From IMG/VR virus record IMGVR_UViG_3300034407_002229, positions 1 through 26,456 of that record: a stretch of DNA of 26,456 nucleotides. One strand, written 5' to 3'. The notes beneath the pieces were generated by a model. That model had not been told where the DNA came from, searched no databases, and was given only the letters and a program-made list of their open reading frames with translations. The number at the start of each line of letters is the position of its first letter. Within the stretch, counting starts at the first letter, position 1. This stretch comes from a virus. Made by a program: the position numbers and the translations under genes. Positions 3,644 to 22,778 of this stretch are shown piece by piece.

Positions 3644-4639
3644 TTATGTCCAGAATGTAGCGCCAACAAAGACGTCACCCACGACACCAACAGCTGCACC
3701 GACTGCCATTCGCATTACAATTTTAATATTATCGCTTCCGTCAAATTCGTAAGCAGGAATCCAGCTCACAGAGCTTAGGTCCGTCCCCAAATTTGTACCA
3801 ACCACTAAGTTCTCTTGACTAGCAACGAGAATGCAATCAGCAGGAATGCCGGGACAAACGCGAATTGGAACACCAAGGTAGTTAAGTTCGCCAAACGACT
3901 GTAGGGTAACATTGTTTTGATAACCCTGACCTCCAGCAGTTGCAAGTGCTTGCTGATAAAGAGCAGCTGTTTTTGTACCGACATAAATGCCAACATCTGC
4001 TTTGCTCAATACACCCGGCTTTGTGTTTGCAGTAGCAGCGTAAACAGTACCGATTTCAGTAATAACATTAGCCGCAGTAATTGCGTTAACCGTTACTTCG
4101 TTTGCACCTGCCAAAACACCTGCGTCAAAGCCAGCTTCGTCAAATACTCCGTCGTTAGACAAGAATCCTTGAGCGTAAATAGCGCCAGTTGTTTCAGACA
4201 ACCATAGGAGGTTCTCCAAGTTCTCAGCTGTTTTTGCTGCCGTCAAACCCAAAGTAAAGTTTTTAAACTCTTGAGTCATGTAATCGGTAGTCGCCATGGC
4301 TGTCGCTGCTCCGTGCCACGTAGGGTACACGGTTCCACGACAAATAGTTTCATTTACCATCAACTCGTCAAGAGTAAGAACTGCCTCATTCAACTCAAGG
4401 TTTGCACCGTCGGCGTAATCACAACCAGCAGCCTGAATTGTGTCTGTTGCGCTTTGTACTGGAATTACAGCCTTATAGTGAACGCCATCAAGAACACGAA
4501 CATAGTTTTTGGCAATCGTGTCATTTGCCTTTAGCGCAGGAGTCAAAAACGGAAGTGCCAATTCACCTGCGTAGGTGTTAGCAGCTACGTCAATGTCAAA
4601 ATTCCTGCGACGACTTCTAGTTAATGAATTGTAACTCAT
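3644..4639 (-). CDS. Major capsid protein (HK97-like, putative)
   Basis: This 331-residue protein should build the icosahedral shell. It has the usual capsid size, a basic N-terminus (SLTRSRRRNFDIDV), a central helix-rich part with LTLDELMVNETICRG and a C-terminal beta part ending in NIKIVMRMAVGAAVGVVGDV, the closing pattern seen in Bacteroidota phage capsid proteins. It is Ala, Thr, Val and Gly rich with good codon regularity. The start overlaps the stop of the scaffold-like gene by four bases, as expected for scaffold-capsid coupling. The prohead protease that would process it is encoded upstream, beyond the acidic gene array. Confidence 0.8.
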   Translation of the reverse strand: MSYNSLTRSRRRNFDIDVAANTYAGELALPFLTPALKANDTIAKNYVRVLDGVHYKAVIPVQSATDTIQAAGCDYADGANLELNEAVLTLDELMVNETICRGTVYPTWHGAATAMATTDYMTQEFKNFTLGLTAAKTAENLENLLWLSETTGAIYAQGFLSNDGVFDEAGFDAGVLAGANEVTVNAITAANVITEIGTVYAATANTKPGVLSKADVGIYVGTKTAALYQQALATAGGQGYQNNVTLQSFGELNYLGVPIRVCPGIPADCILVASQENLVVGTNLGTDLSSVSWIPAYEFDGSDNIKIVMRMAVGAAVGVVGDVFVGATFWT

Positions 4640-5223
4640 TTCATTAGATTTTGCATCATTTCAAAAGCACGTGACTTAACGCCAGTAAAGTTGTCTGTCT
4701 TTATTGACTTCTGCACCCCACGTGTTGGGTTAACAGATAACTTAGTTGCAGCTGGGTTTTGACCTAACTGCGCCTTCAACTCCTCATTTTCTTTTCGCAA
4801 CTCACGCATTTTTTCAAACAACCTGCGCTTCATGCGGTCTTCTGAAAATCGACGACGACCTGAGAAACGCTCTTCGCGAGAACCTCGTTCTCTTTTTGGC
4901 GCTCGTTCCTCCGACATTGCTCGACGACCACGACGTCGGTCACTTTGATACTCTCCTCGTCGACGACGACGGTTACGCGCTAATGCACGATTTTGGCGGC
5001 TTGCTGCCACCTCGGTTGTGGTGCTTTCAGTTACTACTTCGGCACCTCCAGCATCTACTAAATCCATAGCCATTTGATGTACTGCTTCTGCTTGCTCGGC
5101 TTCTAGTCCCATTTCGACGAGCAGGTTAATAAATTGTTCATGAGAATCCGGGACGGTCTCTTCTACGACTGTAGTTGTTTCTTCAACAACGTCTTCTTCA
5201 AACTTTTGCTTCTTTCCAAACAT
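4636..5223 (-). CDS. Scaffold-like protein with opposed acidic and Arg-rich regions
   Basis: This 195-residue protein sits directly before the capsid gene and overlaps it by ATGA. It has three parts. Residues 1-75 are acidic and Val/Thr rich (EEDVVEETTTVVEETV). Residues about 76-135 are extremely Arg rich (ALARNRRRRRGEYQSDRRR). Residues about 130-195 form a coiled coil (KMRELRKENEELKAQL) followed by a C-terminal basic helix ending RAFEMMQNLMK. An acidic-to-basic coiled-coil protein next to the capsid gene is the usual form of a phage scaffold, whose C-terminal helix binds the capsid protein. The Arg-rich block is stronger than usual and could bind nucleic acid. Role is inferred from context. 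Confidence 0.6.
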   Translation of the reverse strand: MFGKKQKFEEDVVEETTTVVEETVPDSHEQFINLLVEMGLEAEQAEAVHQMAMDLVDAGGAEVVTESTTTEVAASRQNRALARNRRRRRGEYQSDRRRGRRAMSEERAPKRERGSREERFSGRRRFSEDRMKRRLFEKMRELRKENEELKAQLGQNPAATKLSVNPTRGVQKSIKTDNFTGVKSRAFEMMQNLMK

Positions 5224-5234
5224 CGGTTTTATTT

Positions 5235-5504
5235 TTAGTAAATATAATACTGTTCATCTTCCATCTCTTCAAGTAGTTGCCGGAACAAAGAGTACTCAAC
5301 AAAACCTAAAGTTGACGGGTAGTATTCTTCAAACAATTCTTCTGCCTCCTCAAATTGCCCGTCCAACAAGAATCGCTCAATCCTCCTTATTGCCCACAAG
5401 AAATTCTTATCATACGAAAAGTCCTGAATGAATTCTTGGAGCAGGATGAGCATCTCTTCCTCAGCGGTGTTGGTCCAAACATCCCAAATTCTAGCAACGC
5501 TCAT
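5235..5504 (-). CDS. Acidic small protein 13 of the array (unknown function)
   Basis: This 89-residue, mainly helical protein has 21 Asp/Glu against 6 Arg/Lys. It shows amphipathic helices EEEMLILLQEFIQDF and FEEAEELFEEYY and ends in a Tyr-rich EDEQYYIY. It is the last gene of the acidic array, 11 bases before the scaffold-like gene. It lacks the beta-type C-terminal motif seen in several other members. I do not recognise the family. Position beside the scaffold leaves a head-assembly role possible, but anti-defence cargo is equally open. Confidence 0.7.
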   Translation of the reverse strand: MSVARIWDVWTNTAEEEMLILLQEFIQDFSYDKNFLWAIRRIERFLLDGQFEEAEELFEEYYPSTLGFVEYSLFRQLLEEMEDEQYYIY

Positions 5505-5514
5505 TCCACTACGA

Positions 5515-5757
5515 TTAACGAATCACAATGTAATAATCTGAGCCATCGTAGTCGTGAGCTACTATCTCAACGTTGGCGTCATCAGCTAAATAATCTAGCT
5601 CGTATTCAAAAGCCATGTAGCCATTGGCGATTTCCTGAGCAGCTCCAAACAAAGTTATCTCATATTGAGTCCCTCGTTGCTTCTCCATTCGTACGTCAAA
5701 TCCTAGCTCTCTATCGAGCATCTCTTTGAAATATTCAATGTCTTGTATTACAGCCAT
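5515..5757 (-). CDS. Acidic small protein 12 of the array, with the shared C-terminal motif
   Basis: The gene most likely starts at 5757 (MAVIQDIEYFKEML), 13 bases after the previous stop, giving 80 residues; an upstream in-frame Met at 5835 would overlap the preceding gene by 65 bases. An N-terminal helix is followed by FDVRMEKQRGTQYEITLFG and a C-terminal part ADDANVEIVAHDYDGSDYY that ends IVIR. The end, an acidic helix, a strand, a D-x-D-G turn and a final strand, resembles those of the genes starting at 8224 and 6470. This suggests common ancestry. Function unknown. Confidence 0.7.
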   Translation of the reverse strand: MAVIQDIEYFKEMLDRELGFDVRMEKQRGTQYEITLFGAAQEIANGYMAFEYELDYLADDANVEIVAHDYDGSDYYIVIR

Positions 5758-5770
5758 GCTTTCGTAATAT

Positions 5771-5962
5771 TTAAATTTCGCTGAGTATTCTTTCGTAAAC
5801 CCAAAATTCGTGTTCAGGAATTTCACCTGCATCAATAGAATCCATTATGAGCCAGTAGGCATTGTTCTCATATCCATTGACAAGTTCGCTGTTCACCCTT
5901 GCAAGTAAGTCTTGCGTCTCACTTACCTCATAGAAAGCCCACTCTATATCATGCTTAATCAT
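5771..5962 (-). CDS. Acidic small protein 11 of the array (unknown function)
   Basis: This 63-residue protein starts at an ATG that overlaps the previous stop by four bases (ATGA), so it is probably coupled to the gene before it. It is predicted mostly helical: IEWAFYEVSETQDLLARV and a later PEHEFWVYERILSEI. Acidic residues clearly outnumber basic ones. It does not contain the common C-terminal motif and I do not recognise it. It may form a pair with the 77-residue gene that overlaps it, which has the same helical and acidic character. Confidence 0.65.
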   Translation of the reverse strand: MIKHDIEWAFYEVSETQDLLARVNSELVNGYENNAYWLIMDSIDAGEIPEHEFWVYERILSEI

Positions 5963-6192
5963 GCTAGTGAATTTAAGTAATCTCGTTCTTCTTCAAGGGA
6001 CTCGGCGTACTGAATGATTCCCATGTTACCGCTTCTTGGATTGTCGTGCCAATCCTTAAGGTGAGGTAGAATATAAGCGTTAGCCTGATTGTATTCATTT
6101 GTTCCGCTTAAGGCTCCATCAACCAATTCAATAACTTCTTCAAGCAATTCTGCTGCGTGATAAAGTTGGTCTATTCTATCATCAAAATTCAT
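5959..6192 (-). CDS. Acidic small protein 10 of the array (unknown function)
   Basis: This 77-residue protein has 16 Asp/Glu and 4 Arg/Lys. Its N-terminal half is a long amphipathic helix (YHAAELLEEVIELVDGAL) and its C-terminal half another (YAESLEEERDYLNSLA), separated by a Pro/Asn/Gly linker. It looks like a helical hairpin. The 11-base gap before its start (AAAACGAAGAC on the minus strand) has the same length as the repeated junction of the preceding genes and matches it at 7 of 11 positions, so it may be a decayed copy. Function unknown. Confidence 0.65.
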   Translation of the reverse strand: MNFDDRIDQLYHAAELLEEVIELVDGALSGTNEYNQANAYILPHLKDWHDNPRSGNMGIIQYAESLEEERDYLNSLA

Positions 6193-6203
6193 GTCTTCGT
6201 TTT

Positions 6204-6470
6204 TTATCCTTTTGCTGTTTCAATAACATAAACGCCTGATTGGTTATACATATCAAAAACTACAATGCCGTTATCTTCGATTTCATCAACGATGTCTAAA
6301 ACAGTATTTTTAAAAAATGCGCTTGAGTCTTCAGCATAATTATAAACCTCGAAAACTAAGTGGTCGTACTGTTCGCGTATAAAACTATTCCCGCGCTCCT
6401 CGTACAATTCATTAACTGTTCGGTCATCGATTAAGTCACTAATCATCTGAATGGTATCTTCTACAATCAT
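6204..6470 (-). CDS. Acidic small protein 9 of the array, with the shared C-terminal motif
   Basis: This 88-residue protein begins MIVEDTIQMISDLIDD and has helices up to about residue 60. It then shows VLDIVDEIEDNGIVVFDM followed by YNQSGVYVIE. The helix ending in DEIE-x-x-G, then a strand, a turn with Gly and a final YxV strand, is shared with the genes starting at 8224 and 7977. Its start follows the array junction TAA-ACAACAGCGAT-ATG. The fold may be a small helix-plus-sheet unit. No function can be assigned. Confidence 0.7.
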   Translation of the reverse strand: MIVEDTIQMISDLIDDRTVNELYEERGNSFIREQYDHLVFEVYNYAEDSSAFFKNTVLDIVDEIEDNGIVVFDMYNQSGVYVIETAKG

Positions 6471-6481
6471 ATCGCTGTTGT

Positions 6482-6700
6482 TTATACCCCTACTTCGACT
6501 TGGGCAATGCTAGGTTCATGGCGAAGTTGAATGACGCGAACGCTATCATACATACCTGCTACTTCGTATAACTCGTCCAACTCATCATTCGTCCAATAGC
6601 TAAAATCTAGCTTCATTACGTCAATTATTCTATTGTCCATAAAATTAATGATGTAACCCATGCGCTTAAATTCGTGTGCAATCTCTTCTGTTGTATTCAT
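6482..6700 (-). CDS. Acidic small protein 8 of the array (unknown function)
   Basis: This 72-residue protein begins MNTTEEIAHEFKRMGYIINF and then has a helical WTNDELDELYEVAGMYDSVR and a final strand-like VRVIQL followed by IAQVEVGV. It is acidic, though less so than its neighbours. The start follows the repeated junction TAA-GCAACAGAGAT-ATG, which favours this Met. I do not recognise the family. Confidence 0.7.
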   Translation of the reverse strand: MNTTEEIAHEFKRMGYIINFMDNRIIDVMKLDFSYWTNDELDELYEVAGMYDSVRVIQLRHEPSIAQVEVGV

Positions 6701-6711
6701 ATCTCTGTTGC

Positions 6712-6984
6712 TTAAAACTGCGATAAAAAATCAGCTATATCCGGGAAGCCAGTCGCATCTAAAGCATCGATTAGTTCATCTATTAATTTGTTTATGCTGT
6801 AACCAACGGCACTTGAAACGTCTTGCGCAGCTCGGTAGGGCATATACGAATAATCAATGTTCCGAAATACTTCTTCTAATTTTCTGTTTTCAGAATGCGC
6901 ATTTGCATCTTCCAAACAAACATAAACCACACCTAGTGCTTCGCTTTGCAATGCACCGCTTAAAAATTGTTCTAAAATCTTCAT
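6712..6984 (-). CDS. Acidic small protein 7 of the array (unknown function)
   Basis: The gene is taken to start at 6984 (MKILEQFLSGALQSE), giving 90 residues, because this ATG follows the array junction TAA-ACAAAAGAGAT-ATG; an earlier in-frame Met at 7035 would overlap the preceding gene. A strand-like LGVVYVCLEDANAH is followed by a helical C-terminus (INKLIDELIDALDATGF). It is acidic and mostly helical, and lacks the common C-terminal strand pair. Function unknown. Confidence 0.7.
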   Translation of the reverse strand: MKILEQFLSGALQSEALGVVYVCLEDANAHSENRKLEEVFRNIDYSYMPYRAAQDVSSAVGYSINKLIDELIDALDATGFPDIADFLSQF

Positions 6985-6995
6985 ATCTCTTTTGT

Positions 6996-7244
6996 TTAAA
7001 GTGGTGCGACAATCGCAGTTCCTGCATCCCACCATTCGACAAAGTAACCCATGTCTTCTAGTTCCTCTAAAAACGGCAAATAAACGCCTAAGTCGTAATC
7101 ACTACTTGTAGCATAATAATCCAAGGCTCTACGCCCATTGTATTTTGCACTAGGGTCTTCGCCTGAAACGCGAAAAGTTCCGTCACCATCTTCAATAACG
7201 TTTAGAAAAACTTCTTGTAAAAAATCAAATACTTCTTCGTACAT
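6996..7244 (-). CDS. Acidic small protein 6 of the array, with a variant of the shared motif
   Basis: This 82-residue protein has 18 Asp/Glu against 4 Arg/Lys. An N-terminal helix (YEEVFDFLQEVFLNVIED) leads to GDGTFRVSGEDPSAKYNG, and the C-terminus reads LPFLEELEDMGYFVEWWDA followed by GTAIVAPL. The LEELEDMG helix end followed by a strand, a turn and a last strand follows the same plan as other array members. The start lies after an exact junction TAA-ACAACAGAGAT-ATG. Function unknown. Confidence 0.7.
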   Translation of the reverse strand: MYEEVFDFLQEVFLNVIEDGDGTFRVSGEDPSAKYNGRRALDYYATSSDYDLGVYLPFLEELEDMGYFVEWWDAGTAIVAPL

Positions 7245-7255
7245 ATCTCTGTTGT

Positions 7256-7486
7256 TTATCGTGTTTGCTGTACGCTAACCATGCCGTAATCATCCATCAA
7301 ATCGTCCATAACCCACGCACCCTGCTCTCTCATGTCATCCCATGTCCAAAGAAAGACTTCATTGTCAATACGACTTACTTCTCCTACATCTGACCAATAT
7401 GGTAAATCATGATTAACCATCCAGTCATCAATCCAGTCTTCGAGGGCGTTTAAACTTGGTCCCCATCCGTAAATTTCAAATTCCAT
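7256..7486 (-). CDS. Acidic, Trp-rich small protein 5 of the array
   Basis: The start at 7486 (MEFEIYGWGPSLNALEDW) is chosen because it follows the repeated junction; an upstream Met at 7576 would overlap the preceding gene by 80 bases. The 76-residue product has 18 Asp/Glu against 3 Arg and no Lys, and seven Trp, an unusual density. Its C-terminus WDDMREQGAWVMDDLMDDY then GMVSVQQTR again has an acidic helix followed by Gly and a short strand. Acidic surface plus many aromatics would suit a protein-protein contact or a DNA mimic, but that is speculation. Confidence 0.7.
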   Translation of the reverse strand: MEFEIYGWGPSLNALEDWIDDWMVNHDLPYWSDVGEVSRIDNEVFLWTWDDMREQGAWVMDDLMDDYGMVSVQQTR

Positions 7487-7496
7487 ATCTCTGTTG

Positions 7497-7742
7497 TTAT
7501 AGATAATTAATTTCCGCGTCAGGTTCCTCTTTTGCCAAGTCTTCGATAACCTCAATAAATGACTCTTCTTCGTCAAAATCCAAGTTCATGGTGATTTCAA
7601 CTAACCGACGATAGTCTCCCTCTTCAGCATCTACATAACCGTAGTCGTCAATGTAAATATCTAAATCGCCTTCGCCGGCGTCACGAGAATCAAGGTAATC
7701 ATGTACCTCGTTAAACTCTAATCCTTTGATTTCAATAAGCAT
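7497..7742 (-). CDS. Extremely acidic small protein 4 of the array
   Basis: The start at 7742 (MLIEIKGLEFNEVHDYLD) overlaps the end of the previous gene by 11 bases; earlier in-frame starts would lie deep inside it. The 81-residue product has 28 Asp/Glu and only 5 Arg/Lys, net about -23, the most acidic protein in the window. The middle reads DLDIYIDDYGYVDAEEGDYR and the end is an acidic helix (ESFIEVIEDLAKEE). Such charge density over 81 residues is typical of DNA-mimic inhibitors, although highly acidic phage proteins can have other roles. Confidence 0.7.
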   Translation of the reverse strand: MLIEIKGLEFNEVHDYLDSRDAGEGDLDIYIDDYGYVDAEEGDYRRLVEITMNLDFDEEESFIEVIEDLAKEEPDAEINYL

Positions 7743-7977
7743 TTGCGTAAATCTGTACGTGATAGTCAAAGCCAAATTCGGTCTCAATATTGAAGTCCGA
7801 AATGTATCCGTTGAACTGCCAGTTCTCCAAAACAAAACGAATATTCTTCTCTGCGCTTTGATTACCGCTTGTCTCAACTAAAATAAAGCCTTCACTTCCT
7901 TCGTTACCCATGTCTAAAGCCACCAAGCCGTAAGACTCGATGTCATCAATAATTCCGTTATAAACTCTTTTGTCCAT
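7732..7977 (-). CDS. Acidic small protein 3 of the array, shared motif at the N-terminus
   Basis: This 81-residue protein begins MDKRVYNGIIDDIESYGLVA, then LDMGNEGSEGFILVET. The DDIE-x-x-G helix end, strand, Gly turn and strand are the same elements that close the genes starting at 8224 and 6470, but here they open the protein. The second half has FVLENWQFNGYISDF and FGFDYHVQIYANAY, possibly a second such unit. The motif moving between ends suggests a domain that has been duplicated or shuffled. Function unknown. Confidence 0.7.
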   Translation of the reverse strand: MDKRVYNGIIDDIESYGLVALDMGNEGSEGFILVETSGNQSAEKNIRFVLENWQFNGYISDFNIETEFGFDYHVQIYANAY

Positions 7978-7981
7978 AGTT

Positions 7982-8224
7982 CTATCTTAATCTTTGAATG
8001 TAAAAATAAACCTCGTCACCATCATCAAAATCAAATGTGACACCCCAAATTCCTAAGCTTTCAATTTCGTCGGCAATGTCATCAGCTTCTCTATCGGTAA
8101 TGTCGTACACCGCAATCCAAGGATTAATCATTTGTCTTGACGGTTTTGCTCGAACGCGAAACTCAGCTTCAATGATTTCTGCTAAGTTTATAATGTCGCT
8201 CTCGTAAACTTTAAGTCTTGGCAT
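7982..8224 (-). CDS. Acidic small protein 2 of the array, with the shared C-terminal motif
   Basis: This 80-residue protein starts MPRLKVYESDIINLAEII and closes with ADDIADEIESLGIWGVTF, then DFDDGDEVYFYIQRLR. It gives the clearest form of the shared C-terminus: acidic helix, Gly, strand, D-D-G turn, strand. It has 18 Asp/Glu and 9 Arg/Lys, so it is less extreme than some neighbours. A strand-helix order in the first half (WIAVYDITDREADDI) may be another copy of the same alpha-beta unit. Function unknown. Confidence 0.7.
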   Translation of the reverse strand: MPRLKVYESDIINLAEIIEAEFRVRAKPSRQMINPWIAVYDITDREADDIADEIESLGIWGVTFDFDDGDEVYFYIQRLR

Positions 8225-8232
8225 GCTTTCTA

Positions 8233-8493
8233 TTAATCTAAATCTGTTTGATGCATTATTACAACTGTGCCGTGAAGAACTGTGGGTAGACCCGTCATTC
8301 GGGTTGCAGGGTGATTTGGTTCTAAACGCGGAGGTAAAGCTCCCTCCTCGTTAACAACTGCAATCTCACCTGCTCCAATGTATATGACTTCAATGTATCC
8401 ATCGACCAATTCCTGCAAGTGTCTAAGCTGGTTGTCTTGCAACTCAACTTCGTAGTCGTTGCCGTTTGGTGGTATTACTTGTACAATTGCCAT
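8233..8493 (-). CDS. DUF3846-like small protein, first gene of the acidic array
   Basis: The start at 8493 (MAIVQVIPPNGNDYEVEL) lies after the stop of the protease gene; an earlier in-frame Met at 8571 would overlap that gene. The 86-residue protein has the pattern YEVELQDNQLRHLQELVDGY, a strand IEVIYI, then IAVVNEEGALPPRLEPNHPA and a final TVVIMHQTDLD, matching DUF3846 as I know it. DUF3846 proteins are common in phages and plasmids and have no settled function. It is the only array member with a recognisable family, and it is less acidic than those that follow. Confidence 0.7.
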   Translation of the reverse strand: MAIVQVIPPNGNDYEVELQDNQLRHLQELVDGYIEVIYIGAGEIAVVNEEGALPPRLEPNHPATRMTGLPTVLHGTVVIMHQTDLD

Positions 8494-8518: not shown

Positions 8519-9445
8519 TTAATTGTACAAACGTGCAAACTTATTCTTGAGATAGTGCTTGTAATAAGCAACCTTCATTTGGTCCAATTCCACCGCAACC
8601 GACTCCTCAACTACGGGTACAACCTCTTCTTCAATGACGCTGGTGTCGTTGTCCCAATTAGTTATCGTTCCCCCAAAAACCTCAAAAGGAATACCAGCAA
8701 TGGTGGTGTAGTTTCCGTTCTGCAATTCGGTGGGCTCTCCTTTTTCGTCTAAAAGAAAAACGTCAACACCGGAGGTAAAATCCTCTGCTTCAGTTGCAAT
8801 CACCAACCCGCCCTGAATACGAGCTTCTTGATAAAAGTTTCGCTTGCGCAGCGCCTGAAATATTCGACTTAGCATGGATTTAGGTTTGTTCATTTCCGTA
8901 ATCTTATCTGCAAAGTACCCCTCCACAGAAAATCCTCGAACGTTTTTTTCTTTGACTTTCTGCCACATATCGTCATTGTCCACTTTGACGCGGACCATCC
9001 AAGTACCAGCAGGTACCTCTAAATTATATAAAGCCGACTTATCTCTTTCCGGGTCTTCAACAATCCAAGACTCAACAACGGACACTCCTTCTACCGCCGT
9101 CTGATGCTCAAACGTGTGTTGGTTCGTTCTGTTTTGCTCAAGAAAAAGTTCACTTGCTCTCTTAACTGTTTCCTTGCTGAAGTACACGTCGTACTCCTCA
9201 TCCGCACTTTCGTCGTAACGACTGATTTTCTTTTCAGGAATTAAGGCTGCACCAACGAGCGTCCTTTGCTCTTCGTCAATTGCCGCCAAGCTAACCATCG
9301 TTTGGTTCAAATCCTTAGAACCTTGCTTTTTAAAAAAGACCCAATTAGATTCGATAGCGGGGTACTCAACTAAACTAATGGCTTCAACACCAAACATTTC
9401 GTGGTCCTCTTCAATCACTAATTCGATTAATCTACGTCCATTCAT
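8519..9445 (-). CDS. XkdF-like prohead maturation serine protease
   Basis: This 308-residue protein should cleave scaffold and capsid proteins inside the prohead. The core matches the XkdF family: LVGAALIPEKKISRYDE, YDVYFSKETVKRASELFLE, a His-containing NQHTFEHQTAVEG, VSVVESWIVEDPE, LEVPAGTWMVRVKVDND and the Ser-containing NVRGFSVEGYF. The His in HTFEHQ and the Ser in GFSVEG are the likely catalytic residues. A C-terminal part after about residue 200 has the LQNGNYTTIAGIPFEVFGG repeat-like strand unit and an acidic tail. It is separated from scaffold and capsid by the 3.3-kb acidic array, whereas these genes are usually adjacent. Confidence 0.8.
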   Translation of the reverse strand: MNGRRLIELVIEEDHEMFGVEAISLVEYPAIESNWVFFKKQGSKDLNQTMVSLAAIDEEQRTLVGAALIPEKKISRYDESADEEYDVYFSKETVKRASELFLEQNRTNQHTFEHQTAVEGVSVVESWIVEDPERDKSALYNLEVPAGTWMVRVKVDNDDMWQKVKEKNVRGFSVEGYFADKITEMNKPKSMLSRIFQALRKRNFYQEARIQGGLVIATEAEDFTSGVDVFLLDEKGEPTELQNGNYTTIAGIPFEVFGGTITNWDNDTSVIEEEVVPVVEESVAVELDQMKVAYYKHYLKNKFARLYN

Positions 9446-9465: not shown

Positions 9466-11400
9466 TTACAATGTTGTTTGCGCATTGATTCTTGCTTGCA
9501 GCATTTGCTGTCCCTCAAGCTGACTTTGCACAACGTACGCCTGACCAGCACCAATCATATTACCTCCTGTAAAGTTTTGATTTTCATTACCCTCTGGAAC
9601 TAGTGTTTGTTGGACGGTATTTAAACGACCTAAATTGTCAACACTTGGGTCGGGGACGTCGGCATCTGCCTGACTCATGATGCTTTTAATTTGTGCAAAT
9701 CCGGATGTTAAAGCGCCCACCATGCTCGCAATGTATCCCGCAAGCGTAAACGGTGCTGCTGGACCCGTTGCGGCTGCCGCAGCAGTTGCGCCTGCCAAAG
9801 CAGACGAAAAAGCTCGTCCCTGATTAATTAATATCTCAGTTACAGCAAACGCTCTTTGTGTTGCTTCATTGTTTTCACCAGCTCTAATTAAACTGCCGAG
9901 TGCGTTCAGGCTGGTATCAATAAACTCCCTCTGTGCAGTAAGTCTTGCTTTGTCGGTTTTTAACTGTTGGTCTACAAGAACTTGGTCATGCTCCTTTTGT
10001 GCTTGTTCTATGTCAAGCCTCATTTGAGCATCTAATTCTTTAGTTAATTCGGCATTATCTACCGCCAAAGCAAATCGCTCCTCGTAAGCCTGAACAATAG
10101 CGTCCTTTTCTTTTTCAAAGCGCAGGTCTTCTCCTTCAAGTCGACTGTATTCTAAGAATTTATCAAGGCGGTCTTCAGCATCTTGAGCAGCAAGGTATGC
10201 TAGGTCGGCTGCCTCTTTCTTTCTGTCCTCGTCCTCTTTTCTCTTTTCTTCTGATTCGTTGTAGTATTTGTCTTGAAGCAGAGCGAGGTCAATATAAAAT
10301 TGCTCCTCCATCTGTTCTAGCTGCGTCTTTGATGCACCTGACGCGGCAGCTTGTTTTTTCTGTCGCAGAAACTGCTGCTCCATCAATTTGGTTTCTCGCA
10401 TCAAACCTTCAAGACCATACAACTCTTCTTTGTCGTTCAGTTCGTCTTGCAGCTTAATTCTATACTGAAGTCTTTTAGCTGCTGCTGCATCATCTTTTTC
10501 CTTTTGTCTTGCTGCTTCAGCTTCTTCTCTTTTCAATCGAAGATTTTCTTCAATCTCAGCATTTATTCTGTTTTGCTGCTCTATAACACCGTTCAACTGA
10601 AGTTGCAAAGCATCTGCTTCTTGCGCTGCCTCATTCATCTTATCGCTCACCGCACCATAAGCACTACTCGCACCGCGCATTGAAATGGTGATGTAGTCCC
10701 ACCAAGACAACTCCGCGTTTCTAACCTCTTTCCTTTTGTCGGCAATTCGCAGCGCTATTTGCTGTCGGTCAGTACGCAGAACTTCTAAATCCGAAGCTCG
10801 TTGTACAGCCTCATTTAGTGTATTTAAATCATCTGCTTGTGTAATATCTAAATCGGCAACCTCCTGTGAGCTTTTTGCTAACTCTTTTTGGGCTTGTGTC
10901 CGTTCCTCAATACTGCGCGTTGAATCATTGACAATTTCAATGTACTGCTGGTTGCGAAGATTGAATTCAACTAAGGTGTTTGTTGCTTCGTCCGTAAGTT
11001 TCGCTTGGAACTTCATTGCCTCTGAAGTCCCGGTGAAGAAATCGGAAACCTTATCCCAGTTAGCAATAAGCCACGTCAATCCCTGTATTAACAAAGGAAT
11101 GCCTAACGCAGCAATGGAAGTGCCTAGAATCTTAAAAGACGTACTGGCACGTTTGACTGAACGTGAAGTCCCCATAAAACCCCTGATAGACCGTTGTAAG
11201 CCACGCGGCAGGACTGATTGAAAAATATCAACGAGTCCTTTCCAGTCCTTTTTCTTATTGGTGTTACGAGTTTTTTTCAGCTCACCATCCAGTCCCTCGG
11301 CTGATTCTTTTGTCTTTTTGATAGATTGGTCTATCTCATCAAGACCATCTATGACCTCTTGGGCTTCTAGCTCACCTTTAAATTTTAGCTCCTCTGACAT
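9466..11400 (-). CDS. Tail tape measure protein
   Basis: This 644-residue protein sets tail length and is ejected with the DNA. It has an N-terminal coiled coil (EVIDGLDEIDQSIKKTKESA), a hydrophobic segment at residues about 91-114 (LGTSIAALGIPLLIQGLTWL), a long charged coiled-coil middle rich in Glu, Lys, Gln and Ala, and an Ala/Gly-rich hydrophobic stretch at about 530-568 (PFTLAGYIASMVGALTSGF). If the whole chain were helical at about 1.5 angstrom per residue, the tail would be near 95 nm, within the siphovirus range. Its start overlaps the 59-residue gene by 23 bases. Confidence 0.8.
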   Translation of the reverse strand: MSEELKFKGELEAQEVIDGLDEIDQSIKKTKESAEGLDGELKKTRNTNKKKDWKGLVDIFQSVLPRGLQRSIRGFMGTSRSVKRASTSFKILGTSIAALGIPLLIQGLTWLIANWDKVSDFFTGTSEAMKFQAKLTDEATNTLVEFNLRNQQYIEIVNDSTRSIEERTQAQKELAKSSQEVADLDITQADDLNTLNEAVQRASDLEVLRTDRQQIALRIADKRKEVRNAELSWWDYITISMRGASSAYGAVSDKMNEAAQEADALQLQLNGVIEQQNRINAEIEENLRLKREEAEAARQKEKDDAAAAKRLQYRIKLQDELNDKEELYGLEGLMRETKLMEQQFLRQKKQAAASGASKTQLEQMEEQFYIDLALLQDKYYNESEEKRKEDEDRKKEAADLAYLAAQDAEDRLDKFLEYSRLEGEDLRFEKEKDAIVQAYEERFALAVDNAELTKELDAQMRLDIEQAQKEHDQVLVDQQLKTDKARLTAQREFIDTSLNALGSLIRAGENNEATQRAFAVTEILINQGRAFSSALAGATAAAAATGPAAPFTLAGYIASMVGALTSGFAQIKSIMSQADADVPDPSVDNLGRLNTVQQTLVPEGNENQNFTGGNMIGAGQAYVVQSQLEGQQMLQARINAQTTL

Positions 11401-19036: not shown

Positions 19037-20224
19037 TTATGTGTTAGGTATGTAAGCTTTTCCATTCACCTTAATTTGCAGGTTAGGCTCTAAGTTAAGC
19101 ATACGGTTGATGACCACTTCACAATATTTTGGGTCTAACTCCATTGCATAACACAAGCGTCCCAGCTGCTCACATGCCACCATAGTAGTTCCGCTTCCAA
19201 TAAATGGGTCCAACACTATCTCTTCTTTGTCTGTGCTGTTTTTGATAAGGTAAGCCATTAGCTCCACGGGTTTCATTGTTGGGTGTTCCCGGCTTGACCT
19301 TGGCTTATCAAATTCAAGTACGGTGGTTTGCTTTCTGTCTGTGAACCAACGGTGCGACGCTCCTTCTTTCCATCCATAGAGACACGGTTCGTGCTTCCAT
19401 TGGTAATCTTGCCTTCCCATAACAAGTGTGTTCTTAACCCATACTAAACATTGACGTATTTGTATGTTGGCTGCTTTCAATGCTAGTCGAAAGTTGATGC
19501 CTTCGGTGTCTGCGTGCCAAACGTAAAAGGCACTACCGGGTTTGATGCATTCCATCGCACGTGAAAAAGCATCGAGCAGGAAAAGATAGAAATCGTTATC
19601 CGCCATGTGGTCGTTTTCAATCTTGAGCTTTTGCTCCGTACCTCCTTCGTAGTTCACGTTGTAAGGTGGGTCTGTTACCACCGCGTCACACATCTCTAGG
19701 GAGGTTAATTTGACGTAGTCATCGTACTTGGTTGCATCTCCGCAAAGCAATCTGTGACTTCCAATTTCGATTAAATCTCCACGCTTTAAAAATGACTCAG
19801 GCGGTAGCTCTACTTCAAAGTCATCGTCTGATGCTTCCGTTTCTAGTTCGTTTGCAAAGTCAATATCAACACCCCAATCTGTAAGGTCTTCTGCGTCGTA
19901 GAGATTTGCAAGCATCTCCATATCCCACGCACCAAATCCAGCGTTGTCTTTAATGACAAACTCCTTCTGTTTTTCTTCGTCCCAATCAACGATTACAATT
20001 GGAACTTCTTTTAAGCCAGCTTCTTTACAGGCTCGGTACCGCATGTTGCCGCCGAGTATAACGTAATCTTTGTTTACGACGATTGGTCGCGTTGATAACA
20101 TCTCCGGAAACTCCTGCACGCTTTTTACAAGTAGCGCAAACTTGTCGTCTTTAATGAACCGAGGATTATTCGGGTTTTGTTTCAGTTGTTGAATCTTCAC
20201 AACTTGCGAGGTAGGCTTGTTCAA
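19037..20224 (-). CDS. ParB-like domain fused to a DNA methyltransferase
   Basis: This 395-residue protein has a ParB-like N-terminus (residues about 8-100: QLKQNPNNPRFI, VILGGNMRYRACKEAG) and a C-terminal amino-methyltransferase. The catalytic motif DPPYNV is at 185-190, and the SAM-binding FIGSGTT at 341-347 lies after it. This order, with the target part between, fits the beta class of N6-adenine or N4-cytosine methyltransferases. HPTMKPVELMAYLI is the helix before the SAM motif. Such fusions are common next to phage terminases and may protect or mark the genome. The start overlaps the preceding gene by 59 bases. Confidence 0.85.
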   Translation of the reverse strand: MNKPTSQVVKIQQLKQNPNNPRFIKDDKFALLVKSVQEFPEMLSTRPIVVNKDYVILGGNMRYRACKEAGLKEVPIVIVDWDEEKQKEFVIKDNAGFGAWDMEMLANLYDAEDLTDWGVDIDFANELETEASDDDFEVELPPESFLKRGDLIEIGSHRLLCGDATKYDDYVKLTSLEMCDAVVTDPPYNVNYEGGTEQKLKIENDHMADNDFYLFLLDAFSRAMECIKPGSAFYVWHADTEGINFRLALKAANIQIRQCLVWVKNTLVMGRQDYQWKHEPCLYGWKEGASHRWFTDRKQTTVLEFDKPRSSREHPTMKPVELMAYLIKNSTDKEEIVLDPFIGSGTTMVACEQLGRLCYAMELDPKYCEVVINRMLNLEPNLQIKVNGKAYIPNT

Positions 20225-20609: not shown

Positions 20610-21018
20610 TGGATAATGTGTTTAATGAATGATTGTGCCAATAATAGATTTCGAAAAGCTTTGCATCAAACCAATGCAGGTTTTTAAGCTTGTCCATAAT
20701 CCACTCCATTTCCTTTTCATATAATGGGACAGCTTCAACTTCAGCTCTTTGATGATACGATTGAAACTGCTGCGTGTTTTCATTGTGCTTTTTGTACTTG
20801 TAGTAATACGGTGAGTTTTTTGAAAAAGAACTGATGCCAATCATTCGCAATATATAAAAGAGAAGCTCGTCACGCTCGCACAACTCTTTTGCTTTTTTAT
20901 TTTCTAAAGCCCATAAACAAATGTCCTGAAATAAATCGTCGCCATTTTCAACCTTAGCCCGACAAAGGTTTAAAAGTTCGTTGTGTTTTTCTTTTATGAA
21001 TAATTCAGCACAGGTCAC
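20455..21018 (-). CDS. Sigma-70-like transcription factor (putative)
   Basis: This 187-residue protein has an N-terminal helical part with GDDLFQDICLWALENKK, like sigma region 2, and near the end a helix-turn-helix (FEIYYWHNHSLNTLSNETGI then SRSTINKSICKTKAYLKK), like region 4. The last 25 or so residues are Arg/Gly/Ser rich and are read from the same bases as the next gene, so they may be of little functional weight. A phage sigma-like factor placed just before the terminase could direct late transcription of the virion genes. It overlaps the NinG-like gene by ATGA. Confidence 0.55.
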   Translation of the reverse strand: MTCAELFIKEKHNELLNLCRAKVENGDDLFQDICLWALENKKAKELCERDELLFYILRMIGISSFSKNSPYYYKYKKHNENTQQFQSYHQRAEVEAVPLYEKEMEWIMDKLKNLHWFDAKLFEIYYWHNHSLNTLSNETGISRSTINKSICKTKAYLKKEAQRIRGRSGIGSRSDRSCDGGKENTGG

Positions 21019-21431
21019 AAATATTTCGTCACTTTTAGGTTAGTCAGTTTGACCTTGTACTTTTCAATCATTTCAGCAAGTTCAGCTGCTGAGTACTTCA
21101 CGCTGATATTACTTAACCTTAACACCTCGTCTGCCGTTCCTTCACCGTAAATTGCGTCCAGCATTTGACCGTGTAGGTACTGCTCTCCTCCGTTCATATT
21201 GCATTGTTTACATTGCAAAGATGCATTGACTAAAGGAGGTTGATGCAACCAGCGCGTCGACTTTTTTGCTCGTGTGATAAAGTGACCGCAGTCGGCATCC
21301 TTATAAAATTTACGGGTGTTGCACGTCACACAATTGCCGTAGCCGTTTTCATCGGTGTTGAATAGTCGGACGTACTCGCTGTATATCCTGTCCAATTTCT
21401 CCACTAGCTTTTGTCTTGGAGTTTTTGCCAT
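21015..21431 (-). CDS. ninG: NinG-like recombination protein
   Basis: This 138-residue protein shows NCVTCNTRKFYKDADCGHFI, then RAKKSTRWLHQPPLVNASLQ and CKQCNMNGGEQYLHG. The two CxxC pairs, DCGHF and QCKxCN are the NinG (Rap) signature, a zinc-binding relative of HNH proteins that acts on recombination junctions in lambdoid phages. The C-terminus is helical (ELAEMIEKYKVKLTNL). It is preceded by two hairpins in the 67-base gap to the nuclease gene. The nuclease upstream and NinG would work together in phage recombination. Confidence 0.75.
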   Translation of the reverse strand: MAKTPRQKLVEKLDRIYSEYVRLFNTDENGYGNCVTCNTRKFYKDADCGHFITRAKKSTRWLHQPPLVNASLQCKQCNMNGGEQYLHGQMLDAIYGEGTADEVLRLSNISVKYSAAELAEMIEKYKVKLTNLKVTKYL

Positions 21432-21498: not shown

Positions 21499-22212
21499 TT
21501 AAACCCAAGAAGGCAGCTCTAAATTCACAACTTCATTGCTGTAGCTTTCAGGACTGCCATCCCAAAGTTTAAATTTACTCACTAATGTTTTTAATCTTGC
21601 TTTTGACCAATACAATGCGTCCGGTGATATATCATAAACCATGACATTGTAAGGAGCCGTTTTTTCAATTGCTAACCATCTAAATTGGTCGCGTCCAGTT
21701 AGCTCACAGTAAATAGCTGCTTGCAGGTAGTAGTCCATGTTGTAGGCTGCCTTTTTAAAGCCGTTAGGACTTGCGTCTTGACATGTTTTAAGGTCCCATG
21801 TCCCATGCTCATTTGTACGGTCTATCCACCCCTTAAATTCGATTCCGTGTATCTTCTTAACCACCGGAATTTCACTTAATCCTTCTTCGTATATTTTTAT
21901 TGCTTCCGGATGTTCTTCGATTTTATTCTGCATTGCCATAATTCTAGCAAGTTCAGATTCATCAATGACCACTCTAGAACCGTTTTGCCGTTTTGACCAT
22001 TCCGCTTTTCCCGCCTTTGTTCTTTTATCTACTTTCGGCATTACGTCGTAGCTCGAATCAAAATCGTTTCTTTCTAGAACATACTTGTGAAACGCAGTAC
22101 CAAACTTCATGTCCGGTGTTTCCACGCGGTCTCCCATTACGTACTGAATATAATGAGCAGGGCTTTTTGCAAACGCTTTTAAAGCGGTATAGCTTAGATA
22201 ATCTCTTTTCAT
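21499..22212 (-). CDS. RecE-like PD-(D/E)XK exonuclease
   Basis: The start at 22212 (MKRDYLSYTALKAF) is preferred because its ATG overlaps the previous stop as ATGA and is preceded by the AACCACACAAA leader element; an upstream Met at 22236 also exists. The 237-residue protein has MKFGTAFHKYVLERNDF, VMPKVDKRTKAGKAEW and the nuclease core FKGWIDRTNEHGTWDLKTCQ, whose Asp and DLK supply metal and catalytic residues. A later YLQAAIYC supplies the conserved Gln. This fits the exonuclease VIII type used for phage recombination and end processing. No RecT-type annealing partner is recognisable in the window. Confidence 0.75.
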   Translation of the reverse strand: MKRDYLSYTALKAFAKSPAHYIQYVMGDRVETPDMKFGTAFHKYVLERNDFDSSYDVMPKVDKRTKAGKAEWSKRQNGSRVVIDESELARIMAMQNKIEEHPEAIKIYEEGLSEIPVVKKIHGIEFKGWIDRTNEHGTWDLKTCQDASPNGFKKAAYNMDYYLQAAIYCELTGRDQFRWLAIEKTAPYNVMVYDISPDALYWSKARLKTLVSKFKLWDGSPESYSNEVVNLELPSWV

Positions 22213-22778
22213 TTTGTGTGGTTGTTTTTTTCCCAAGACTGGCGAATTCGCGTACCTCCTCCTTGTGGCGTTGGTAAAGGTGAATCTTTCACAAGGTCTT
22301 TTAAATTTAAAGGTTCCAGTTTTCGTTCCGAGCGCTCAAACATCTCAGACCTTTGCTTACTGATGCGGTCTTCAATTACTTGAGTCCTAATTTCTGACTC
22401 GTAATTTCGTAGGCAATCTAAAATCTCTGCCGTTTTTAAACGTTCGTACAGTTTCCCAAACTTTCCCTGTCTCACCATATTAAAGCAAAGGCGCATTTCC
22501 TGTAACGTAACCGTAGGATGGTCTTCGATAATACTTCGGCAGCAAAATTGAATCTCTTCATCGCTTTTTAAGGTTTTACTCATATCCATGTCTTTGCATA
22601 ACTTTCCAACCTCAGCAAGCATCCATCCTCGAACCAAAGACGGGTACTCTTTTACCGCTGCCTGTAAACTTGTCCCATCGTAAAAAGCCTCACTTGGTCT
22701 TGTAGGGAAATTATCCGTTTTTAATAAAGTCGCTAAGTCCGTCCGTTGTGAAGTTGTCTTTTTTAAATCCTTTGTCAT
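22209..22778 (-). CDS. Replication-region protein, DUF6633-like
   Basis: This 189-residue protein has a helical core: EEIQFCCRSIIEDHPTVTLQ, EMRLCFNMVRQGKFGKLYER and LKTAEILDCLRNYESEI. The last two segments resemble DUF6633 proteins of Bacteroidota mobile elements, which lie near replication genes. The C-terminal part is charged and ends in a disordered TRIRQSWEKNNHTK. The start at 22778 overlaps the previous gene by 68 bases and is preceded by the leader AAACCACACCAA, which supports it. A role in replication initiation or helicase loading is inferred only from position. Confidence 0.55.
   Translation of the reverse strand: MTKDLKKTTSQRTDLATLLKTDNFPTRPSEAFYDGTSLQAAVKEYPSLVRGWMLAEVGKLCKDMDMSKTLKSDEEIQFCCRSIIEDHPTVTLQEMRLCFNMVRQGKFGKLYERLKTAEILDCLRNYESEIRTQVIEDRISKQRSEMFERSERKLEPLNLKDLVKDSPLPTPQGGGTRIRQSWEKNNHTK
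22213..22223 (-). repeat. Leader element copy: AACCACACAAA before the nuclease gene
   Basis: On the minus strand AACCACACAAA directly precedes the ATG at 22212. It is a one- or two-base variant of the AAACCACACCAA element found before the genes at 22778 and 24705. It lies inside the 3' end of the upstream gene. Confidence 0.55.

Follow-up and report, generated by a model that had tools for sequence, protein, structure and literature searches.

The IMG/VR virus record IMGVR_UViG_3300034407_002229, a 26.5 kb stretch that we refer to as the window and whose gene starts were computed, carries on its minus strand an array of 13 small open reading frames (ORFs; 8493-5235) between an XkdF-like prohead protease gene and a scaffold-like gene. 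Comparison with related viral loci showed that the array belongs to a locus which is specific to one clade, has two sites, and is filled with exchangeable small acidic genes; its cassettes end exactly at a common 11-nt sequence in front of the start codon, hereafter the leader. With moderate confidence, we interpret the array as a cassette-exchange locus lodged in the structural operon and probably serving counter-defence.

Two sites filled with small acidic genes

Genes 1 to 13 of the window array encode proteins of 86, 80, 81, 81, 76, 82, 90, 72, 88, 77, 63, 80, and 89 aa, with small overlaps or short spacers between neighbors. A sequence-only reading of the window, made before this analysis, had described them as 13 acidic genes of 63-90 residues between protease and scaffold, and our analysis confirmed this; all 13 proteins are acidic, with a net charge of -8 to -23 and a pI of 4.05-4.43, and thus have the strong negative charge expected of DNA-mimic proteins. 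Its count of 28 acidic against 5 basic residues in gene 4 (7742-7497) was correct (28 D/E, 5 K/R), as was its assignment of a family, DUF3846, to the first gene alone; no other significant match was found among the window array proteins (genes 1-10 in Pfam and PHROGs, genes 11-13 in PHROGs).

Searches with the major capsid protein (MCP) and the protease gathered ~160 related viral loci, all metagenomic and some overlapping, which are cited below by our own labels (L followed by a number). The gene order common to them is terminase, a long gene of the 964-aa type, tape measure, a first site (TP, between tape measure and protease), protease, a second site (PS, between protease and scaffold), scaffold, MCP, a gene of the 179-aa type, and portal. 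Apart from small insertions in two loci, neither site holds any gene in a strongly supported sister clade, where the protease-scaffold gaps are mostly 30-60 bp, which bears out the earlier statement that protease and scaffold are normally adjacent; in an isolate, Nonlabens phage P12024L, the protease adjoins an MCP-like gene. The clade of the window, which is split from the sister clade with 100% support, carries 0-13 genes per site at both TP and PS, so that the number of array members varies within this clade. A few mixed labels inside the array clade belong to contigs cut within a site, and two of these (L119 and L139) end in leaders. In the window phage itself the TP site is empty (20 bp).

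After removal of identical copies, ~50 loci yielded 357 distinct array proteins, which an all-against-all search divided into 140 families, 76 of them singletons. At most 110 aa were counted in 317 of the 357, with a median length of 80 aa and a median net charge of -12, and the pI is below 5 in 98% of the small array proteins. Mean charge per residue was -0.148 in array proteins vs. -0.024 in proteins of matching size from other parts of these loci (p ~5e-25); the acidity is specific to the two sites and not a matter of chance. The order of genes within arrays is not conserved, and one family can occupy either site. Cassette pairs gave a dN/dS of 0.16, indicative of purifying selection and of conservative evolution inside families. 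The earlier description of these genes as fast-changing holds for gene content and fails for the individual protein sequences. That relatives might carry unrelated genes at the site had been named beforehand as part of an outcome that would speak against the earlier idea; such genes are indeed what relatives carry, yet they are genes of the same kind, a result that is more in keeping with an exchange locus than damaging to that idea.

A common start leader marks the ends of exchanged cassettes

The leader, a repeated element which the sequence-only reading had not noticed, stands before genes 5-9 of the window, exact before genes 5 and 6 and with one mismatch before genes 7-9. Allowing up to two mismatches, the window contains six matches against 0.19 expected, five of them at the starts of genes 5-9, and the identical 11 nt were found before unrelated genes of distant relatives. 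Across 117 leader-bearing junctions the consensus from stop to start is TAA-ACAACAGAGAT-ATG; the leader consensus TAAACAACAGAGAT abuts the ATG, the spacer measures exactly 11 nt in 100 of the 117, and the stop codon is TAA in 114. In gene 7 the leader indicates a start at 6984 and not at an ATG further upstream (7035).

In 121 same-length cassette pairs with a DNA identity of at least 80%, the flanks on both sides were unrelated in 69, representing 28 families. Mean DNA identity in these 69 pairs was 0.90 within the gene, 0.77 and 0.66 in the adjoining 14 nt upstream and downstream, respectively, and 0.27-0.29 beyond 14 nt on either side; the identity of exchanged cassettes therefore stops at the leader on both sides. 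Near-identical cassettes were found in phages whose core proteins are only ~32-47% identical. For example, gene 6 of the window and a cassette of L127 share 95% protein and 96% nucleotide identity, with core proteins at 40%, and the L127 copy lies at the other site. When recent exchange was defined as a protein identity of at least 80% between family members from phages with divergent proteases, it was seen in 28 of 72 pairs that had one leader type in common vs. none of 60 pairs whose types differed, a restriction that fits swapping via the leader.

Copies of the leader are concentrated at these sites and run in one orientation. The loci, 1.9 Mb in all, hold 84 exact copies of the 14-mer at called array-gene starts and a further 16, always on the coding strand, the 16 being accounted for by the protease start, by unscored arrays of site-cut contigs, or by starts missed by the gene caller; exact leader copies in the 1.9 Mb lay only within or bordering the two sites, and neither the 14-mer on the opposite strand nor the reversed sequence with up to one mismatch was found there. 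A search of 2.9 million viral contigs with a 17-mer returned 66 stretches; the 36 with at least two copies (35 and L124) all belong to this phage group, with the copies at the two sites wherever borders were visible. In 257 Gb of cellular genomes it returned 34 stretches, 33 of them single-copy, where ~30 would be expected by chance. The one remaining stretch, a contig binned as Pseudomonadales (L247; JAFMIA010000163.1), has five leader copies together with core genes of this phage group and is probably misbinned phage DNA.

This leader dominates the cassettes of several related lineages, and other lineages have other leaders before the ATG, for example TAAAACAACTTAAAG and CTAATAAAAAGAAT. Since 16 families stand behind at least two leader types, the leader is tied to lineage and not to gene. 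In one family (family 12; L104, L138, L141, L133, and L111), near-identical in distant phages, the leader is two bases shorter, TAAACAACAGAG-ATG, with AT shared with the start codon.

The nearest precedents are the start-associated sequences (SAS) of mycobacteriophages and, in role, the PeSL elements of T4-type phages. SAS and their extended form (ESAS) were described in cluster K mycobacteriophages, where SAS (GGGATAGGAGCCC) includes a Shine-Dalgarno core, stands at a distance of 3-7 bp from the start, and precedes non-structural genes only (PMC3203893). As with SAS, the leader is a short conserved sequence in one orientation at the starts of many unrelated, non-homologous small genes, lineage-specific and nearly absent outside the phage group. 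Unlike SAS, it reads ACAACAGAGAT (its consensus does not match the SAS consensus with its Shine-Dalgarno core), lies directly against the ATG, takes up the entire spacer, and is found only at two sites in a structural operon, and cassette identity ends at it. The PeSLs are short conserved intergenic elements which Arbiol et al. in 2010 and Comeau et al. in 2014 reportedly described as T4-type regulatory cassettes and proposed as shufflers of accessory genes. A PeSL consists of a promoter and a stem-loop terminator, for either of which an 11-nt spacer is too small; the resemblance lies in a short conserved intergenic element with a suggested shuffling role. Integron arrays resemble the locus in their single-ORF cassettes of mixed origin and repeated junction, but each integron ORF is followed by attC, a structured site of ~57-141 bp, which a spacer that is 11 nt in most leader junctions cannot hold. 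No integrase was recognized among the window proteins scanned, a subset of the ORFs of a record that may be incomplete. What sets the leader apart from SAS and PeSLs is its sequence, its position flush with the ATG, its restriction to two slots in a structural operon, and the exact ends of the cassettes.

The leader might instead be a signal for translation or co-regulation only, kept by selection as has been proposed for SAS, with recombination at gene borders taking place without it. Its position directly against the ATG, the occurrence of the same families behind different leaders according to lineage, the near-identical cassettes that have no recognized leader, and the SAS precedent itself are all consistent with this, and we consider it a real possibility, if short of an even chance; against it stand the arrest of DNA identity at the leader on both sides of exchanged cassettes and the fact that no recent exchange across leader types was seen in the 60 pairs.

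Counter-defence as the probable function, and its alternatives

The only array family with a functional name points to anti-restriction. An ArdA-type family (230-248 aa, net charge ~-38 to -48) matches Pfam ArdA (PF07275; 2.1e-13) and PHROG 2059, anti-restriction (5.2e-16), a weak alignment connects its profile with the solved structure of ArdA, 2w82 (E 0.01), and it is present in 19 of the 44 loci in which both sites are complete and at least one array gene occurs. The relatives of the window, though not its own array, therefore show the pattern of anti-defence islands, with known anti-defence genes beside small unknown ones. In L008 the ArdA copy (match 4.5e-9) has its domain in frame with the protease, and the two form a single 552-aa ORF (L008:7471-9129), which is either a true fusion or the product of a stop codon lost in assembly.

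True ArdA, with a net charge of ~-40, thus resides in the arrays of many relatives, and a 2025 study described ArdA-like proteins of about one third the normal length with anti-restriction activity (PMC12548430); small acidic proteins of about the size of the array products can accordingly be anti-restriction proteins, and the array products are of a suitable size for such a role. In sequence, the 13 window proteins show no relationship to ArdA: Pfam gave no ArdA match for genes 1-10, and our own ArdA profile found no significant match among the small array proteins, those of genes 1-13 among them, so that their origin as ArdA fragments of the short (sArdA) kind was rejected. Similar clusters of small diverse genes that include known anti-defence genes have been described in the leading regions of plasmids (PMC11541004) and in archaeal viruses, in which anti-defence genes were found through a common upstream regulatory sequence (PMC11065993). 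Those sets are expressed early and have promoters, whereas the array sits in a late structural operon with an 11-nt spacer only. Two internal proteins of T4, Ip2 and Ip3, are injected and act as inhibitors of type IV restriction enzymes (PMC12373910); by analogy they offer a precedent for anti-restriction proteins delivered by the virion.

Structures were predicted for genes 4 and 13 of the 13. The gene 4 model (pLDDT 90) is a beta-alpha-beta-beta-alpha-beta ferredoxin-like domain, predicted to be compact rather than elongated and DNA-like, and the gene 13 model (pLDDT 87) is all-helical. Fold searches listed generic ferredoxin-like rows for gene 4, none significant, and generic helical rows for gene 13; DNA mimics were not listed for either, which does not exclude them. 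A counter-defence role is probable, supported through association by ArdA at the same sites and by an arms-race-like turnover of content. The earlier proposal of DNA-mimic anti-defence proteins accordingly survives in its anti-defence part; mimicry by the 13 themselves gains no further support, as they are unrelated to ArdA, gene 4 is predicted to be compact, and no solved mimic was among the fold matches listed.

We propose the following scheme, in descending order of support. Each cassette, one small acidic ORF, would be gained, lost, or swapped by recombination at the short common leaders, perhaps with help from the NinG/Rap-like protein and the DUF3799 nuclease of the phage itself. The leader may also set the translation start or co-regulation of each cassette, a role suggested by the fact that one and the same family can stand behind different leaders in different lineages. 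The products would act chiefly against host defences, through binding to defence proteins, and some of them would be ArdA-like acidic decoys. Finally, as products of a late operon, they might act late, protect progeny, or be packed in the head and delivered with the DNA.

Two other functions and one other origin have to be weighed against this scheme. The products could be host-takeover or superinfection-exclusion proteins that inhibit transcription, translation, or later phages and are not chiefly anti-defence; small, diverse, orphan, and exchangeable genes are typical of phage takeover sets, and neither DUF3846 nor DUF7249 carries a known function. We consider this unlikely, given that the sole functionally named family is anti-restriction and that a late position suits early takeover poorly. 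Still less probable is a role in the head or its assembly (as scaffold helpers, minor capsid proteins, or ejection proteins) with no part in anti-defence. The array does share a tight operon with the prohead protease and the scaffold gene, between which it lies, the gene 13 family recurs at the PS site alone, and one larger array family of 259-278 aa is unlike the acidic genes, but the sister clade makes heads without any array gene, content varies from 0 to 13 unrelated families, ArdA is among the array genes, and no packaging motif common to the N- or C-termini of the array proteins was found. Tandem duplication of one ancestral acidic gene, suggested by the similar size and charge of the members, was rejected as highly improbable in view of the 140 families, the few weak links in profile-profile comparison (2,967 of ~9,700 cluster pairs), and the two different predicted folds, alpha/beta and all-helical, which argue against a single family.

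Several observations weigh against our interpretation of the array as a counter-defence exchange locus. Leader type tracks lineage and perhaps host, so that shared hosts could explain exchange within types; 17 of 530 pairs without a recognized leader are equally close (some with a leader 2 nt shorter), and exchange is therefore not always leader-dependent. Eight of the 13 window genes do not have the common leader, gene 13 among them, whose family, in 29 loci and at the PS site only, never has it in front. Recombination events were not seen directly, and the loci compared are metagenomic with some overlap. No window array protein has a known function, ArdA is absent from the window, the small proteins are not ArdA-derived, and neither predicted fold has an anti-defence match. 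Lastly, anti-restriction genes usually act early, and the array locus sits in a structural operon.

More tentatively, the locus may be a cassette system that works without a dedicated integrase. A lineage-specific leader would double as translation module and recombination junction and would enable phages of different species to trade counter-defence genes singly and precisely at two fixed positions of the head-assembly operon, and the products might travel in the virion; we rate this broader proposal as possible rather than probable. If the interpretation is correct, the two sites and their leaders could serve as bait for counter-defence genes, with 140 families from ~50 loci nearly all unannotated; the locus would be a clean natural case of single-gene swaps with exact ends, bearing on the old question of phage mosaicism; and counter-defence genes would be located in a late structural operon, an unexpected place to search.

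Features of the window and minor observations

The coordinates of the array, its leaders, and the genes discussed are given in Table 1.

Table 1. Array genes, start leaders, and relevant neighboring or distant genes of the window.
Feature	Coordinates	Strand	Evidence or remark
Major-capsid-like (MCP-like) gene	3644..4639	-	PHROGs 11320 and 1623; query for finding relatives
Scaffold-like gene	4636..5223	-	No family; named by position, composition, profile conservation; downstream border of array
Array gene 13, 89 aa, net -15	5235..5504	-	Predicted all-helical; family recurs in 29 loci
Array gene 12, 80 aa, net -12	5515..5757	-	Singleton
Array gene 11, 63 aa, net -11	5771..5962	-	Singleton
Array gene 10, 77 aa, net -12	5959..6192	-	Singleton
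Array gene 9, 88 aa, net -15	6204..6470	-	Family 40
Start leader before gene 9	6468..6481	-	1 mismatch
Array gene 8, 72 aa, net -8	6482..6700	-	Family 14
Start leader before gene 8	6698..6711	-	1 mismatch
Array gene 7, 90 aa, net -9	6712..6984	-	Family 6
Start leader before gene 7	6982..6995	-	1 mismatch
Array gene 6, 82 aa, net -14	6996..7244	-	96% nt identity to L127 cassette
Start leader before gene 6	7242..7255	-	Exact
Array gene 5, 76 aa, net -15	7256..7486	-	Family 13
Start leader ACAACAGAGATATG before gene 5	7484..7497	-	Exact
Array gene 4, 81 aa, net -23	7497..7742	-	Family in 10 loci, both sites; predicted ferredoxin-like fold
Array gene 3, 81 aa, net -10	7732..7977	-	Singleton
Array gene 2, 80 aa, net -9	7982..8224	-	Without family; singleton
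Array gene 1, 86 aa, net -10	8233..8493	-	Pfam DUF3846 2.6e-11
XkdF-like prohead protease	8519..9445	-	Pfam Peptidase_S78_2 5.2e-16; upstream border of array
Tape-measure-like gene	9466..11400	-	PHROG 24676 tail length tape measure 2.9e-5; upstream border of TP site
NinG/Rap-like recombination protein	21015..21431	-	Pfam NinG 2.2e-7; candidate cassette-exchange helper
DUF3799 PD-(D/E)XK nuclease	21499..22236	-	Pfam 9.4e-28; candidate recombination exonuclease

No RNA families or tRNAs were found in the window, internal sigma-70 promoters were not above shuffled sequence, and no Bacteroidota TTTG/TANNTTTG promoters were found on the coding strand. A tblastn search of isolated phages with the 13 concatenated window proteins and one ArdA gave no match. 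PADLOC returned nothing for 141 family representatives, and NCBIfam only weak, unrelated matches. The MCP had no match in 320 genomes of the family to which one arbitrarily picked Flavobacteriaceae genome belongs, a result that is uninformative on the host.

Among the array families of relatives, family 3 (L131:6017-6826, L128:12529-13305, and relatives) is a recurrent protein of 259-278 aa among the small genes and unlike them, which may be a mobile structural protein. Family 7 (L103:8386-8676 and L126:7432-7692) has a motif of the NGWANHATW type, and Pfam DUF7249 matched two of the 141 family representatives, probably of this family. Elsewhere in the window, positions 19037-20224 encode a fusion of a ParB_N domain with an N6/N4 DNA methyltransferase, by which the phage may protect itself against restriction.

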